Below, piece by piece: positions 13,014-38,272 of a stretch of 43,204 bases of DNA. A program made the translations under genes and the position numbers. Positions within the stretch are counted from its first letter, which is position 1; every line of letters begins with the position of its first letter. The notes under the pieces are model-generated. The model made no database searches and had not been told where the DNA came from. It was given only the letters and a program-made list of their open reading frames with translations. Source of the stretch: a virus; the IMG/VR virus record IMGVR_UViG_3300046003_001770, positions 1 through 43,204 of that record. The stretch is one strand, 5' to 3'.

Positions 13014-13227
13014 ATTCTTTCTACAAAGTTGCAAAACGATAGGCTGGAAACGGCCTGTTTTCGTTGAGTATTATCCCGTCTTTGTAGAAAGAAAACTGAC
13101 CGCAAACGCCCGTAGATAGGGTGTTTCTGGTCAATTCTCTTATATAGTAGTAGGATTATATATGGTGTCAGTTTTAATGCGGGTTTCGAGAGTTTTTTGT
13201 AGAACGCCCTACATTCTTTCTACAAAA
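13014..13227. other. Probable attP region with arm-type and core-type integrase sites
   Basis: Motif TTCTTTCTACAAAG occurs at 13015-13028, inverted and perfect at 13080-13093, again as TTCTTTCTACAAAA at 13214-13227, and as a shorter inverted form at 13193-13204. Between them lies an imperfect inverted pair, TGACCGCAAACGCCC (13097-13111) and GGGTGTTTCTGGTCA (13119-13133), around a 7-base centre GTAGATA, as expected for a core site with 7-base overlap. The integrase stop lies inside the last arm copy. Role is inferred from layout. Confidence 0.55.
13041..13061 (+). terminator. Weak intrinsic terminator after the fibre operon
   Basis: Stem AGGCT/GGCCT (13041-13045 with 13052-13056, one G-T pair), loop GGAAAC, followed by GTTTTC. 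The T-run is short; placement at the end of the late rightward genes supports it. Confidence 0.35.
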
Positions 13228-17700: not shown

Positions 17701-17872
17701 TCACCTCAATAAAGCAATCTTCCTTCACGCACTTGTAAAGACTCACTGGCGGCAATTCGTCAAGCTTGAAGTCGGTGCGAATAGCCAAGTGCCTGGCGCA
17801 TGCGTATGACTTTTCGCAGAGCGTTCGGTCATCACGCCGGCCAAGGCAGCGGGTGGTTTTGTTGTCGATCAT
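17690..17872 (-). CDS. Cys-containing small early protein
   Basis: 60 residues with C-x8-C-x5-C and a late C-x4-C (TTRCLGRRDDRTLC, YKCVKEDCF), possibly a small metal-binding fold. ATG overlaps the methyltransferase stop. No family recognised. Confidence 0.5.
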   Translation of the reverse strand: MIDNKTTRCLGRRDDRTLCEKSYACARHLAIRTDFKLDELPPVSLYKCVKEDCFIEVNDD

Positions 17873-18792
17873 GCTGCGTCCATATCAAATAAAGTGCCGT
17901 GTGATTGCTTTGCACTGGTGATGTTTTTAACTGCCTGATTGAAGTAGGCTGTTTTCAATTCGCTGCCTACAAACTTGCGGCCTGCTTTGATTGCAACATA
18001 ACCAGTCGATCCAACACCGCTATACGGGTCAAAAATCACATCGCCAGGATTGCTCCATAACTGAACAGCACGTTCAATCAGATCAAGTGCCATTGGGCAT
18101 ACATGGCGTTCATCTTCTGCCTCTCGTGCTGCTTTGGCATTCAACGTATTGGAGAAATTAATATCCATCCATACGGGGCTTGCATATCGCCTCCATCGTT
18201 CATGGCTCAGTGTTCCGTGTGTCGGTTCATTCTCGCCAATGAAATATTCCAAGCCATTGTTATGCGCTACTGGCTCTGGGTTTTCTCCATCCTTGCGGAA
18301 GGCAAGAAGGTATTGCGGGATACCTGCGCGGCTTCTTGAGGAGTCTTTACAAAGCTGTTTGTGCATCAATCCTAGCGCCTTGGTGCGCGTTGCTTCGATC
18401 AGCGGGTCTTTCCATGCACAGTGTTCAGAGTGAAAGATAAAGCCAGCGCGTTTGAATGCTGCAATCACATCGCCCCGAAAGTCTTTCAGTCCGATATATC
18501 CGTCCCGTTCTTTCATGGCTGGAATATTCATCACATCAACGCAAACAATCCGGCCAGGCTTAGTTGCTCGTAATAGGCCAGCGATTAGAAAATCAAAATG
18601 CTCATAAAACTGATTGTCATTCGCTGAATTGCCCATGTCTCGGTCGCTGTTTGAGTATGTATAAAGCGATGCGTAAGGCGGCGAGAAAATGGAAAGGTGT
18701 AGCGAGTTTTCAGGAAGTGAATTAACCACTTCAATGCAATCCGCATTCCAGAGCGTCCAGTTGTCGCCGCTTGCTTGGTTCAATACTTTCAT
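17869..18792 (-). CDS. DNA methyltransferase, beta class (N4-cytosine or N6-adenine)
   Basis: 307 residues. Catalytic motif IV SPPY at 37-40 precedes the cofactor motif I DPYSGVGSTG at 255-264, the order of the beta class. The C-terminal FVGSELKTAYFNQA is typical of this family. SPPY favours N4-cytosine but does not prove it. The start overlaps the helicase stop by 4 bases, so the pair is co-translated. No restriction endonuclease is beside it, so protection from host restriction or regulation is more likely than a complete restriction system. Confidence 0.85.
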   Translation of the reverse strand: MKVLNQASGDNWTLWNADCIEVVNSLPENSLHLSIFSPPYASLYTYSNSDRDMGNSANDNQFYEHFDFLIAGLLRATKPGRIVCVDVMNIPAMKERDGYIGLKDFRGDVIAAFKRAGFIFHSEHCAWKDPLIEATRTKALGLMHKQLCKDSSRSRAGIPQYLLAFRKDGENPEPVAHNNGLEYFIGENEPTHGTLSHERWRRYASPVWMDINFSNTLNAKAAREAEDERHVCPMALDLIERAVQLWSNPGDVIFDPYSGVGSTGYVAIKAGRKFVGSELKTAYFNQAVKNITSAKQSHGTLFDMDAA

Positions 18793-20162
18793 GCTGCCAT
18801 CCTCAAAAAGTCAGGAATAGTCATCGCCACTTTTGGCTCGTATTCGGTTTTGTTTCGTACCGTTCCGCCGTGTAATGCAGCGGCGTTTAGGTCTTTCATG
18901 TGTTCGATCATGTTGTTGTAGGTTTCCTCCGCTTCGCGTTCTTTACGCTTGATATTGGAAACCACAGCGCCTTCTGTCTCAGCGGTTATTACATGAACAT
19001 TGACCGGCTTTGTTTGACCGAATCGCCAGCAACGGCGAATCGACTGGTATAGCTGTTCGTATGAGTCAGACAGTCCGACATAAGCCATGTCTGCACAGTG
19101 CTGAAAGTTAAGACCAAGGCCCATGATCTTTGGCTTGGAAACAATCACGCGAATCGAACCATCTAAAAAACCGGCTATTGCTTTCTCTTTGTGTTCGTCT
19201 GTGTCGCTGCCTTGAACTTCAACAGCGCCAGGTATCGCAGCGGCAAGTTGTTCAGATTCGTTATTTAAGTTGCACCAAACTAGGAATGGCTTGTCGCTGG
19301 CATTCACAATGTCGGCACATGCTCTGACTCGATCCTCTATCGAGTCGCGCCTTGCTTGCTGTCTCTCTTGAAGCGTTTGAGCTTCAACAGCGAATAGAAA
19401 CCCGCTAGACGGTGTATGCACTTTTACGCATTGCTCATGCATGTGAAGCGGTGGCAGTACAAAGCCATCATCGCTATAACCAAGGTCTGAAGGCTTGCGA
19501 ATCATTACTGCCCATGAAGCCATCCATGACCAGAATGCGGCCTGTGCATGGCCCTTAACTCGCCATTTAGAAGTATCTCCACCGTCATGCGTGAAATACA
19601 TCGCAAGCATTTCAGAGCGAGTCATTACGCCTAAAAACTCAGCCTGAGTACCTAGCTCCATGACATCATTAGGGGCTGGTGTGGCGCTACTGCACAAGCG
19701 GAAAGGCGTATTCTTAAACGCTTCGATCATCCATGTTGAGTAAGCGCCTGATGAGTTCTTTAGAATTGATGATTCATCCAAAGCAACCGCGCCGTATTGC
19801 TCAATATGGAAGTTTTCAAGCCGTTCATAGTTGATCACAGTGATGCGCTTTTTAACCTGCGATTGATCTTTAGCGTAAGACAGATCAATGCCGAACTTAT
19901 CAGCCTCACGGACAAACTGATGCGCTACTGCTAAAGGAGCAACAATCAAGGCTTCATGTGGTTGTCTGGTTGCCCACTCCATCTGCATTGGGCCTTTGCC
20001 TAATCCGCAATCAGCAAACAATGCAGCGCGGCCTCGTTTTAATGCCCACTTAACCATGTCCGACTGGTGAGAGTGAAGCATTGGATTCAGGTTAGGAACT
20101 TCGATTAAACCTGTTGGCGGGTCGATTGATTGCTTTCGCTTAATGAATTCCATGTAGTTCAT
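18789..20162 (-). CDS. SNF2-type (SF2) helicase
   Basis: 457 residues. Walker A region ADCGLGKGPMQ at about 50-60, Walker B/DExx as ALDESSILKNSS near 126, motif III CSSATPAPND, C-terminal helicase motifs SKPKIMGLGLNFQ and QSIRRCWRFGQTKP. The gene pair with a DNA methyltransferase is a recurring phage arrangement. Likely action is ATP-driven DNA translocation or remodelling. Starts by ATGA overlap with the previous gene. Confidence 0.85.
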   Translation of the reverse strand: MNYMEFIKRKQSIDPPTGLIEVPNLNPMLHSHQSDMVKWALKRGRAALFADCGLGKGPMQMEWATRQPHEALIVAPLAVAHQFVREADKFGIDLSYAKDQSQVKKRITVINYERLENFHIEQYGAVALDESSILKNSSGAYSTWMIEAFKNTPFRLCSSATPAPNDVMELGTQAEFLGVMTRSEMLAMYFTHDGGDTSKWRVKGHAQAAFWSWMASWAVMIRKPSDLGYSDDGFVLPPLHMHEQCVKVHTPSSGFLFAVEAQTLQERQQARRDSIEDRVRACADIVNASDKPFLVWCNLNNESEQLAAAIPGAVEVQGSDTDEHKEKAIAGFLDGSIRVIVSKPKIMGLGLNFQHCADMAYVGLSDSYEQLYQSIRRCWRFGQTKPVNVHVITAETEGAVVSNIKRKEREAEETYNNMIEHMKDLNAAALHGGTVRNKTEYEPKVAMTIPDFLRMAA

Positions 20163-20736: not shown

Positions 20737-20879
20737 AGGTACTCCACGCATGCAAGGAAAACCAATAAGATGATGATGTTGCAACCTGCGCCTACAATCA
20801 GACCGGCCAGCATGTCATCGTGTTCTTGTGCAATTTTCTCTAGCCGTTTTACTTCGGCTTGAAAGCTAATCGTCGTCAT
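20733..20879 (-). CDS. 48-aa tail-anchored membrane protein
   Basis: Start chosen at ATG 20879 because GGGAG precedes it and it overlaps the previous gene's stop. A charged helix (ISFQAEVKRLEKIAQEHDDM) is followed by a C-terminal membrane segment (IIILLVFLACVEYL). Function unknown. Confidence 0.5.
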   Translation of the reverse strand: MTTISFQAEVKRLEKIAQEHDDMLAGLIVGAGCNIIILLVFLACVEYL

Positions 20880-21042
20880 TTTCAACTCCCTCAGCATCGT
20901 ATGTTTCGTTGTATTTGGTATCTCGTATCTGCCACTCTGTAGCAGGCATTCGGATAAAGTCGCGGTCATGCCGGTTCTCAAGCATGATCTTTCCGGTACT
21001 CTTTTCGATTAGTTGGTATCGAACCAATTCGTCGTAGGCCAT
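20866..21042 (-). CDS. 58-aa early protein
   Basis: Start at the second of two ATG codons (21042), four bases after a strong GGAGG; the first ATG (21045) is too close. The sequence reads MAYDELVRYQLIEKSTGKIM onward and ends in an acidic tail. It is the first gene after the terminator at 21058-21084, so it is expressed only by read-through or from an unseen promoter. Confidence 0.55.
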   Translation of the reverse strand: MAYDELVRYQLIEKSTGKIMLENRHDRDFIRMPATEWQIRDTKYNETYDAEGVENDDD

Positions 21043-21057
21043 CATTCCTCCGGTCGC

Positions 21058-21084
21058 AAAAAAAGCCCATTGCTTGAATGGGCT
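21058..21084 (-). terminator. Strong intrinsic terminator
   Basis: On the minus strand: perfect 8-bp stem AGCCCATT/AATGGGCT (21077-21084 with 21064-21071), 5-base loop, then seven T. It ends the non-coding RNA region and stands between the recombination genes and the helicase/methyltransferase/integrase genes. Confidence 0.9.
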
Positions 21085-21376
21085 GGTTGTATGTCCCGCT
21101 TACGATACTGCGGGGATTGTGCCGCTCTGAACTACAGAGCCTTAGACTCAGCTAGACTGAATCTCAATCCGATCAAGCTGTGTTGATGGCGGGTGCTGAT
21201 CTCCCGCTTTCCGCATCGGCTTCACCTGCGGCCATAACCGTCGTTACTCAGCCGTAACATTCACCAACATCAAAGAGTCCTCCCGCCTAGATTCGAAAAA
21301 AATCACGCTCAAGAGATTTGCTAGGCAATAGGATGTTTAAAGTCTGAAACCACGACTGTCAGAGGACTCTTTATTG
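21085..21376 (-). ncRNA. Structured non-coding RNA / attenuator-like leader
   Basis: A 408-base gap (21085-21492) holds no long gene. On the minus strand it folds into a chain of perfect stems. The outer 11-bp stem is AAAGAGTCCTC/GAGGACTCTTT (21362-21372 with 21272-21282). Inside it are GCCTAG/CTAGGC (21285-21290 with 21321-21326), AAATC/GATTT (21300-21304 with 21315-21319) and a 4-bp AGTC/GACT. Then come GTTAC/GTAAC, CCGCA/TGCGG, GCGGG/CCCGC, GCTCTG/CAGAGC (21124-21140) and CCCGC/GCGGG (21095-21114), followed by the terminator. Another hairpin CCCTA/TAGGG lies at 21441-21455. No tRNA loop or known riboswitch consensus was recognised. Confidence 0.55.
21244..21270 (-). CDS. Possible 8-aa leader peptide
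   Basis: Minus strand GGGAGG (21279-21284) is 8 bases before ATG 21270, which reads MLVNVTAE and stops. Four bases of the ribosome site are inside the 11-bp outer stem, and the peptide's last codons form the GTTAC/GTAAC hairpin, so translation and folding would compete. Candidate only. Confidence 0.35.
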   Translation of the reverse strand: MLVNVTAE

Positions 21377-21492
21377 TTGAGACTGCTTACGTCCAGTCAG
21401 TCGGCCTCTTGGCTGATTCCATCAGGCTAATGTTTGACTCCCTACTGAGTAGGGCCAGAGGTAGAGACACCGATCAGCGCGGCTTATGACAA

Positions 21493-21816
21493 TCAGTAAT
21501 CTGCTCGTTTGGCAAAAGGGATGTCATCACCTAGCGGCGGTGCAGCTTGTGCGCTACGCTGTTGTGCTGGTTGGCTCATCGCTTTAACTGCTAGGCCAGT
21601 AACGTACTCGCCAAACTGCTTGTCCATGAACAGGTAATTAAACCAAGTGCCATCGTCCATTTTTGAGCTTGGGCCTGATACAAACTGACCATTTGAACAG
21701 CTGGCCAGCTTGCAGTTCTTAATCGCAAGTAGCACTTTGTCAGCCTTAACCAAGGCAATGCCGAATGTCTTACCTGACTTAGACGGCTCAATATTTACTT
21801 CTACGGGGAATTGCAT
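21493..21816 (-). CDS. Single-stranded DNA-binding protein-like
   Basis: 107 residues. An N-terminal beta-rich part (FPVEVNIEPSKSGKTFGIAL; WFNYLFMDKQFGEYVTG) and a disordered Gln/Ala/Pro-rich tail with the acidic DDIPF motif near the C-terminus, the hallmark of SSB tails. DDIPF is followed by six residues, unlike host SSB where it is terminal. Directly follows the annealing-protein gene, forming a recombination pair. Likely coats ssDNA during replication. Confidence 0.65.
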   Translation of the reverse strand: MQFPVEVNIEPSKSGKTFGIALVKADKVLLAIKNCKLASCSNGQFVSGPSSKMDDGTWFNYLFMDKQFGEYVTGLAVKAMSQPAQQRSAQAAPPLGDDIPFAKRADY

Positions 21817-22476
21817 TTATTGCTCCTTGTTTTCTGCTTTGAACTTCTTGATTGCGCTTCGTACCTTTGAATCGAGCAAAGACCATACTGCTATCTTTTC
21901 CTCGGCTTCTAGGTGTTTCTTTTCCAGCATATCGACCACTTCATTGATAGGCTTACCACTGTCAAAATGGACTTGGATACCTTCGGCAAACTCTTTGATA
22001 AATCGCTGTTCTTCAAGAGTGAATGACTCAAGAGCGCCAGCGGTAGGCGTTACGCCTTTGGCTGATGCTGCCTTTGCTAATGCTTCGGCTTCGCCTTCTG
22101 GAATATCCTCACCCGCATAGATGTAAAGCCCAAGACCATGCAGAGCGATAGCCTTTGCTAAGCAGCGTTGCATTGCGGTATTGACTGCGAATGCGTCTGG
22201 ATTGGCGATTGCTTGGTTGCGGTGGTTCATTACTGGAAGCTGTGAAGTCATCGCCTTACCAAAGGCTGTAACGGTGCAGAAAACCATCACCGTGTCATTC
22301 CATCGCATCGGATCTTTGTATTCCCATGTAGCCATTGGGTCAGCCTTTAGAAGCTCTGAAACCGCCCATGCCCACGATAGGTAAGAAAGGTTATTTTTCT
22401 TCTCTACATGGTCATTCACGTTAATTGCAGAAAGCCGCTGGAATGGCGACTCGGTTACTTCAATTCGCTTGTTCAT
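21817..22476 (-). CDS. Single-strand annealing protein, DUF1071 (Sak-type)
   Basis: 219 residues. Central LSYLSWAWAVSELLKADPMA, NDTVMVFCTVTAFGKAM and NTAMQRCLAKAIALHGLGLY are the DUF1071 signatures. This family belongs to the phage recombinases of the Rad52/Sak group. It is followed by an SSB-like protein, its usual partner. It would act in recombination-dependent replication and circularisation. No exonuclease partner is evident nearby. Confidence 0.8.
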   Translation of the reverse strand: MNKRIEVTESPFQRLSAINVNDHVEKKNNLSYLSWAWAVSELLKADPMATWEYKDPMRWNDTVMVFCTVTAFGKAMTSQLPVMNHRNQAIANPDAFAVNTAMQRCLAKAIALHGLGLYIYAGEDIPEGEAEALAKAASAKGVTPTAGALESFTLEEQRFIKEFAEGIQVHFDSGKPINEVVDMLEKKHLEAEEKIAVWSLLDSKVRSAIKKFKAENKEQ

Positions 22477-22945: not shown

Positions 22946-22961
22946 TTCCGTATCTCCTCTG

Positions 22962-22973
22962 TGTAAAAGAGCG
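22962..22973 (-). promoter_or_regulatory. boxA-like element 2
   Basis: Minus strand CGCTCTTTTACA, one mismatch to CGCTCTTTAACA, 16 bases before the first start codon. Confidence 0.5.
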
Positions 22974-23370
22974 AACCAGACTCAACAGGGCTGTTCTATT
23001 CCCAATCTGATCCGCTGAAAAGTTAAGTACCGTTTTGCCGAAGGGCTGTTTTTCCCGCAGCACTCCTTGAGATGGTGAAACGGCACTACACAGGCGGCTA
23101 AAGGCTTCTCGTTGCGCGGGAAACTTCCTTTCGGTTAAGGTTAATAACCGCCTGCGTACTGCTGTCGTCACAATCAAAGAAGCTCAACGCTAAGCACGTC
23201 TGCCATTCCAGCGCCTTCCGAACTTCTTTGAATGTGTGGCCTCGTTAGAAGCCACTCACACCTACGTCTGATCGTCCTATTTGCGGGGAGCCTTCACGAC
23301 TTCGCCATCAGATCGGTGTTTGTTTATTACTTTGTGCTATCGGAATAAACCGATACACAGGATTCCTGTC

Positions 23371-23382
23371 TGTTAAAGAGCG
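23371..23382 (-). promoter_or_regulatory. boxA-like element 1 (nut-like site)
   Basis: Minus strand CGCTCTTTAACA matches the boxA consensus of rrn and lambdoid antitermination sites. It begins about 88 bases after the inferred start of the leftward transcript. A 13-base palindrome ACAGGATTCCTGT and the TATCGG/CCGATA hairpin follow immediately, in the place of boxB or put-type hairpins. Confidence 0.65.
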
Positions 23383-23476
23383 TCTTACTCAACTGCGGCT
23401 GACCGAATCGCTGTGCTGCTTGGCTATCTGTCCCGGCATTACCGGCTGCGGCTTCGTTGTTTTGTTGCGTTGATGA

Positions 23477-23505
23477 ATTATCAGACTTCCGATATTTGTT
23501 GTCAA
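23477..23505 (-). promoter_or_regulatory. Leftward early promoter (PL-like)
   Basis: Minus strand -35 TTGACA (23500-23505), 17-base spacer, -10 GATAAT (23477-23482). Start expected near 23470. GCTATATTT at 23514-23522, just upstream, is shared with the rightward promoter and is a likely operator half. Confidence 0.8.
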
Positions 23506-38052: not shown

Positions 38053-38077
38053 AGCCTCGATTCGTCGGGGCTTTTTT
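38053..38077 (+). terminator. Intrinsic terminator after scaffold gene
   Basis: Stem AGCCTCGA/TCGGGGCT (8 pairs, one G-T), TTCG tetraloop, six T. Divides scaffold from capsid transcription, so the capsid gene needs its own promoter. Confidence 0.9.
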
Positions 38078-38162: not shown

Positions 38163-38272
38163 ATCACCCCAGTATTTAGCAGGGCGGTGTGGATCAAAAG
38201 CATTTCTTGCCTGTTCTCTCAATGCCTAGATTCGCCTCGCCAAGGCCCGCCCTGCTAAGCATTGGGGTTTTT
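38163..38272 (+). ncRNA. Candidate small RNA between scaffold and capsid genes
   Basis: A perfect TATAAT lies at 38152-38157 (no good -35 seen). The RNA would begin near 38163. A 21-base arm at 38167-38187 pairs with 38247-38267 (CCCCA and TAGCAGGGCGG blocks exact), around a 59-base loop, and five T follow. Loop and upstream sequences can also pair (CATTGAGAG 38138-38146 with CTCTCAATG 38216-38224). No known RNA family recognised. Confidence 0.5.

Follow-up and report, generated by a model that had tools for sequence, protein, structure and literature searches.

Organization of the left early operon and its untranslated spacer

The window, that is, the whole stretch of DNA analysed here, is a 43-kb IMG/VR virus record with the gene layout of a lambdoid temperate phage. 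Its left side is transcribed leftward and codes for an HTH repressor, a Sak annealase, a SpoVG-like protein, an SNF2 helicase, a DNA methyltransferase and an integrase, and its right side carries the genes for a replication helicase and primase, RusA, terminase and portal. The part of the left side that concerns us comprises the following features:

21817–22476, minus strand: Sak-type single-strand annealing protein
21493–21816, minus strand: SpoVG-like gene, directly upstream of the spacer (Pfam match weak, scoring under the curated cut-off)
21057–21492, minus strand: untranslated spacer of ~450 nt, from the stop of the SpoVG-like gene to the end of the terminator
21057–21084, minus strand: intrinsic terminator with an 8-bp stem, a 5-nt loop and U7
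20866–21045, minus strand: gene for a 59-aa protein of unknown function, the first past the terminator
18789–20162, minus strand: SNF2-type helicase, downstream of the terminator

The original prediction had placed an unrecognised, folded and non-coding RNA between the recombination genes and the helicase, methyltransferase and integrase genes. Both the placement and the description hold. The Sak annealase and SpoVG-like genes lie on one side of the spacer and the helicase, methyltransferase and integrase genes on the other; no ORF of more than 27 codons is wholly contained in the minus strand of 21057–21492; the ten longest six-frame spacer fragments gave zero PHROG matches; and an Rfam search of the spacer returned nothing above the gathering score, the sole match being a sub-threshold one of SpF51 to the terminator region. 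We rejected a pseudogene on the strength of the same PHROG result, and a tRNA or tmRNA was likewise rejected; as for a mobile element, the phage holds no second copy of the spacer sequence. The gap contains no promoter-like site. Hence, the spacer is probably co-transcribed, and the genes downstream would need either read-through or an unrecognised promoter.

The terminator and its distribution in Sak-bearing loci

The perfect intrinsic terminator that had been proposed to end the fold is indeed present, and it lies just beyond the 21085–21376 interval originally described. The sequence AGCCCATTCAAGCAATGGGCTTTTTTT (21084–21057) folds at -10.2 kcal/mol with a pairing probability (P) of about 0.95, and no other minus-strand site in the window qualifies as a strict intrinsic terminator. 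It is polar, with a U-run on the minus strand only, and the GGAGG of the 59-aa gene (21051–21047) comes straight after that U-run. Among Sak-bearing loci, 3/60 have a strict sense terminator at most 2.5 kb downstream, against 0.2 expected; the Sak-then-terminator arrangement is thus enriched, not general.

Structure of the spacer

Upstream of the terminator, we delineated a branched element and a chain of hairpins, together with a candidate short reading frame and its ribosome-binding site:

21265–21379, minus strand: 115-nt branched element with a 17-pair outer helix (one A-A mismatch), an inner 6–7-bp arm and a weak second arm
21279–21284, minus strand: GGGAGG, resembling a Shine-Dalgarno sequence, within the paired 3' arm of the helices
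21244–21270, minus strand: candidate 8-codon ORF, MLVNVTAE-stop with an ATG start, probably not meaningful
21085–21264, minus strand: hairpin chain, best at 21164–21157/21151–21144 and 21140–21135/21129–21124

The arms of the outer helix (21379–21362 and 21282–21265) enclose 79 nt. Its core, AAAGAGTCCTC/GAGGACTCTTT, is a perfect 11-bp stem (P 0.99), which extends to CAACAATAAAGAGTCCTC/GAGGACTCTTTGATGTTG with 16/18 Watson-Crick pairs and, on the minus strand, one U-G pair. The extended form is the only inverted repeat of such quality in the 43-kb window and was equalled in 0/300 shuffles of the gap and 1/6 shuffles of the whole window; plain perfect 11-bp inverted repeats are common, with 4 in the window versus 0–2 in its shuffled copies. 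Within the helix, the inner arm GCCTAG/CTAGGC (21326–21321/21290–21285) is also well defined (P 0.97). Hence, the proposed multibranch fold stands as regards its 11-bp outer stem and one inner arm, but the second arm is a weak helix of 4–6 bp. The run of five perfect stems envisaged further downstream survives in part: AGATTCAG/CTGAGTCT (P 0.88) and GCTCTG/CAGAGC (P 0.75) are favoured. For stems of the GCGGG/CCCGC type, the probabilities scored belong to other pairings of the same sequences.

When compared with shuffled sequence, the block 21057–21379 folds with the same z-score, -4.2, on the minus and plus strands. The branched element (21265–21379) gives -3.5 and -3.9, respectively, and the hairpin chain (21085–21264) -3.7 and -2.2; no surplus of structure is seen over the gap's first 113 nt (z +0.3). 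In a window-wide scan of 300-nt windows, at least 10/430 reached -3.3 or lower. As a stretch rich in inverted repeats, the fold is therefore genuine, but since the two strands score equally and other windows fold equally well, it does not on its own argue for a functional RNA.

Homologues and mosaicism

We searched for homologues of the spacer by several routes, none of which recovered one. These were blastn in phages, plasmids and E. coli; protein searches with the SpoVG-like product (IMG/VR and genomes) and with the small downstream product (IMG/VR); 80 Sak-bearing loci; relatives of the portal and of the replication helicase; and sets of 369 genomes searched by DNA and 274 by covariance model. 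Single-sequence covariance models run over 0.7 Mb of related loci found no match, DNA patterns of the stem hit IMG/VR only by chance, in unrelated sequence without the partner arm, and relatives of the SNF2 helicase share only the helicase-methyltransferase cassette. Even the close relatives are mosaic in the spacer region, and none of their contigs extends over the element.

The two genes flanking the spacer (20866–21045 and 21493–21816, minus strand) have almost no relatives in the collections searched, the SpoVG-like protein finding only matches of 33–50%. The SNF2-helicase and DNA-methyltransferase pair (17869–20162, minus strand) behaves like a mobile cassette: it is ~78–90% identical in phages with unrelated neighbouring genes and only ~36% identical in G401, an otherwise close relative whose portal is 86% identical.

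The mosaicism of this pair makes a module junction at the spacer likely. One alternative is that the 18-nt inverted repeat is a DNA-level feature and the folding incidental: the repeat might bind a protein, mark a past recombination event or be left over from an element inserted at a module boundary. The equal folding surplus of the two DNA strands and the heavy mosaicism, with the helicase-methyltransferase pair occurring in phages with unrelated upstream genes, are in keeping with such an origin. However, the hairpins of 21085–21264 are better on the transcribed strand (z -3.7 vs -2.2), one pair of the stem is a U-G that is good only in the minus-strand RNA, and there is neither a flanking target duplication discernible by eye nor a second copy; we accordingly regard this explanation as improbable.

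Another alternative, which we consider rather unlikely, is that the spacer specifies a discrete, trans-acting phage small RNA of 323 nt (~21379–21057), whose ends would come from RNase III cleavage of the operon transcript at the 17-pair helix and from termination. The structured block has boundaries that would suit such a molecule, with a z-score of -4.2 between the long helix, preceded by the unstructured 5' 113 nt (z +0.3), and the terminator. But it has no promoter of its own, no homologue and no identified target, and its fold surplus is shared equally by both strands. That the same 323-nt block might be a phage RNA of a kind not described before, cut from the early transcript at the long helix, ending at the terminator and acting either in trans or as a new terminator-proximal antitermination element that controls the helicase, methyltransferase and integrase genes, seems to us highly doubtful.

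Lack of support for an attenuation switch

An attenuator requires two mutually exclusive states that are tied to the terminator. The original prediction interpreted the spacer in this way, as a cis-acting device whose fold changes in response to a ligand or when the 8-codon leader is translated, which decides whether the terminator forms. Several aspects of the locus lend themselves to this interpretation: an intrinsic terminator directly ahead of the ribosome-binding site of the next gene, a Shine-Dalgarno sequence buried in a very stable stem and an excess of folding. In having a short ORF, hairpins and a terminator before the next gene, the spacer also resembles the translation-coupled attenuators of trp, his and pyrBI, but it differs from them in the lack of a competing antiterminator and of regulatory codons and in its spacing, which is wrong for such a mechanism.

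The alternative structure that would exclude the terminator is what we failed to find. The best duplexes between upstream sequence and either terminator arm equal those of shuffled sequence (48–54% of shuffles do as well), and forbidding the terminator costs about 8.5–10.7 kcal/mol. The masked ribosome site does exist in that the 3' arm of the helices takes up GGGAGG and MLVNVTAE-stop begins with an ATG, but a strong Shine-Dalgarno plus ATG turns up in 17% of spacer shuffles. Nor does the leader peptide contain a run of regulatory codons. Its last codons had been thought to form the next hairpin, GTTAC/GTAAC, which reaches a P of only about 0.06; GTAAC instead pairs preferentially with the following GTTAT (P 0.70). 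Moreover, the stop of the peptide lies ~160 nt upstream of the terminator with stable hairpins in between, so that its translation does not overlap any switch, and no homologues are at hand to show covariation. We therefore reject the proposed switch, though we accept that the distal genes are preceded by a terminator: no competing partner for the terminator arms rises above chance, the terminator is nearly always formed (P 0.95), the leader hairpin is disfavoured, a Shine-Dalgarno plus ATG often arises by chance and the peptide is too far away for the position of the ribosome to have an effect. Attenuation at this site is thus very improbable.

The operon leader and a proposed nut-type antitermination

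A different kind of control is suggested by the other end of the operon, ~2.4 kb upstream of the terminator:

23477–23505, minus strand: presumed left promoter, TTGACA, 17, GATAAT, 11/12 (a consensus match only)
23371–23382, minus strand: canonical boxA CGCTCTTTAACA with a short hairpin after it, a nut-like signal
22960–23470, minus strand: untranslated folded leader of the left operon, ~510 nt, with a second boxA-like site at 22973–22960

The boxA (23382–23371) lies ~90 nt past the expected start, between the promoter and the first gene, and the terminator lies downstream of genes of the operon on the same strand, as in nut-type systems. The fold of the leader (22960–23470) is strand-specific, with a z-score of -4.2 on the minus strand versus +0.1 on the plus strand. 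G401, alone among 40 related records, has a matching leader core: its leader aligns at 66% over 126 nt in a single weak alignment (E 0.027) and has a similar boxA-like core, ACTCTTTAAAA, the common core being GCCGCAGTTG...CTCTTTAA. The G401 contig begins inside the operon and so says nothing of a terminator at the same place.

As a possible functional phage RNA, nut- or put-like, the leader 22960–23470 is more promising than the folded spacer. HK022, also a temperate phage, has its put antitermination elements as structured RNA close to the left promoter, and an RNA of this kind could give protein-free read-through of terminators. The put elements act from the leader, whereas the spacer fold sits just before the terminator; the candidate counterpart of put in this phage would be the leader.

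In lambdoid phages, the early genes are generally situated beyond terminators and depend on antitermination (PMC6256539), and the Nus-dependent nutL/nutR sites offer a system for comparison (PMC11893012). The strong, polar and sole minus-strand terminator, the lack of a promoter in the gap, the 11/12 promoter with its exact boxA and the lambdoid layout together lead us to favour antitermination of the nut type, in which intra-operon terminators are normal and with which the leader boxA and the G401 core also fit. On balance, we think it somewhat probable that the spacer is a folded untranslated region ending in an intra-operon terminator within the left early operon of a temperate, lambda-like phage, and that this terminator is overridden by antitermination. 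The points that count against this are the lack of an N-like protein among the identified genes, for which no dedicated search was made, the hairpin after boxA (ACAGG-AAT-CCTGT), whose 3-nt loop is unlike lambda boxB, the single and weak match of G401, and the occurrence of the arrangement in 3/60 Sak loci. Lambda tL-type intra-operon terminators with nut/boxA signals are similar in their leftward early operon with recombination genes first, internal terminator and leader boxA; the present locus differs in that a long folded untranslated spacer precedes the terminator and in that neither an N gene nor a boxB of the lambda type has been recognised.

Four features can be read directly from the DNA, namely the non-coding gap, the stem, the polar terminator and the boxA of the leader, and it is from these that we infer termination in vivo, antitermination and processing. 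Under antitermination of this type, RNA polymerase would start near 23470, transcribe the recombination genes and stop by default at about 21057. The distal helicase, methyltransferase and integrase genes would be read only after the polymerase had been made termination-resistant at the boxA leader, or else through leakage past the terminator. The likeliest role of the 17-pair helix and the hairpins would then be in stabilising or processing the proximal mRNA at its 3' end, with RNase III a plausible participant, rather than in sensing; the spacer may also yield a small RNA. If this is correct, the phage, an uncultured one with a boxA leader, would be one more temperate phage that splits its early operon by a terminator which antitermination must override. 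The case is useful mainly as a caution: an attenuator does not follow from strong folding combined with a hidden ribosome site and a terminator.

Other structured regions of the window

On the plus strand, the only strict terminator of the window is at 38072, and a perfect 11-bp inverted repeat lies ~100 bp beyond it, at 38176–38258. The gap adjoining the integrase gene (13014–13219) is among the strongest-folding places of the window on both strands, and it contains several direct and inverted copies of TTCTTTCTACAAA, which are possibly the integrase arm-binding sites of attP.
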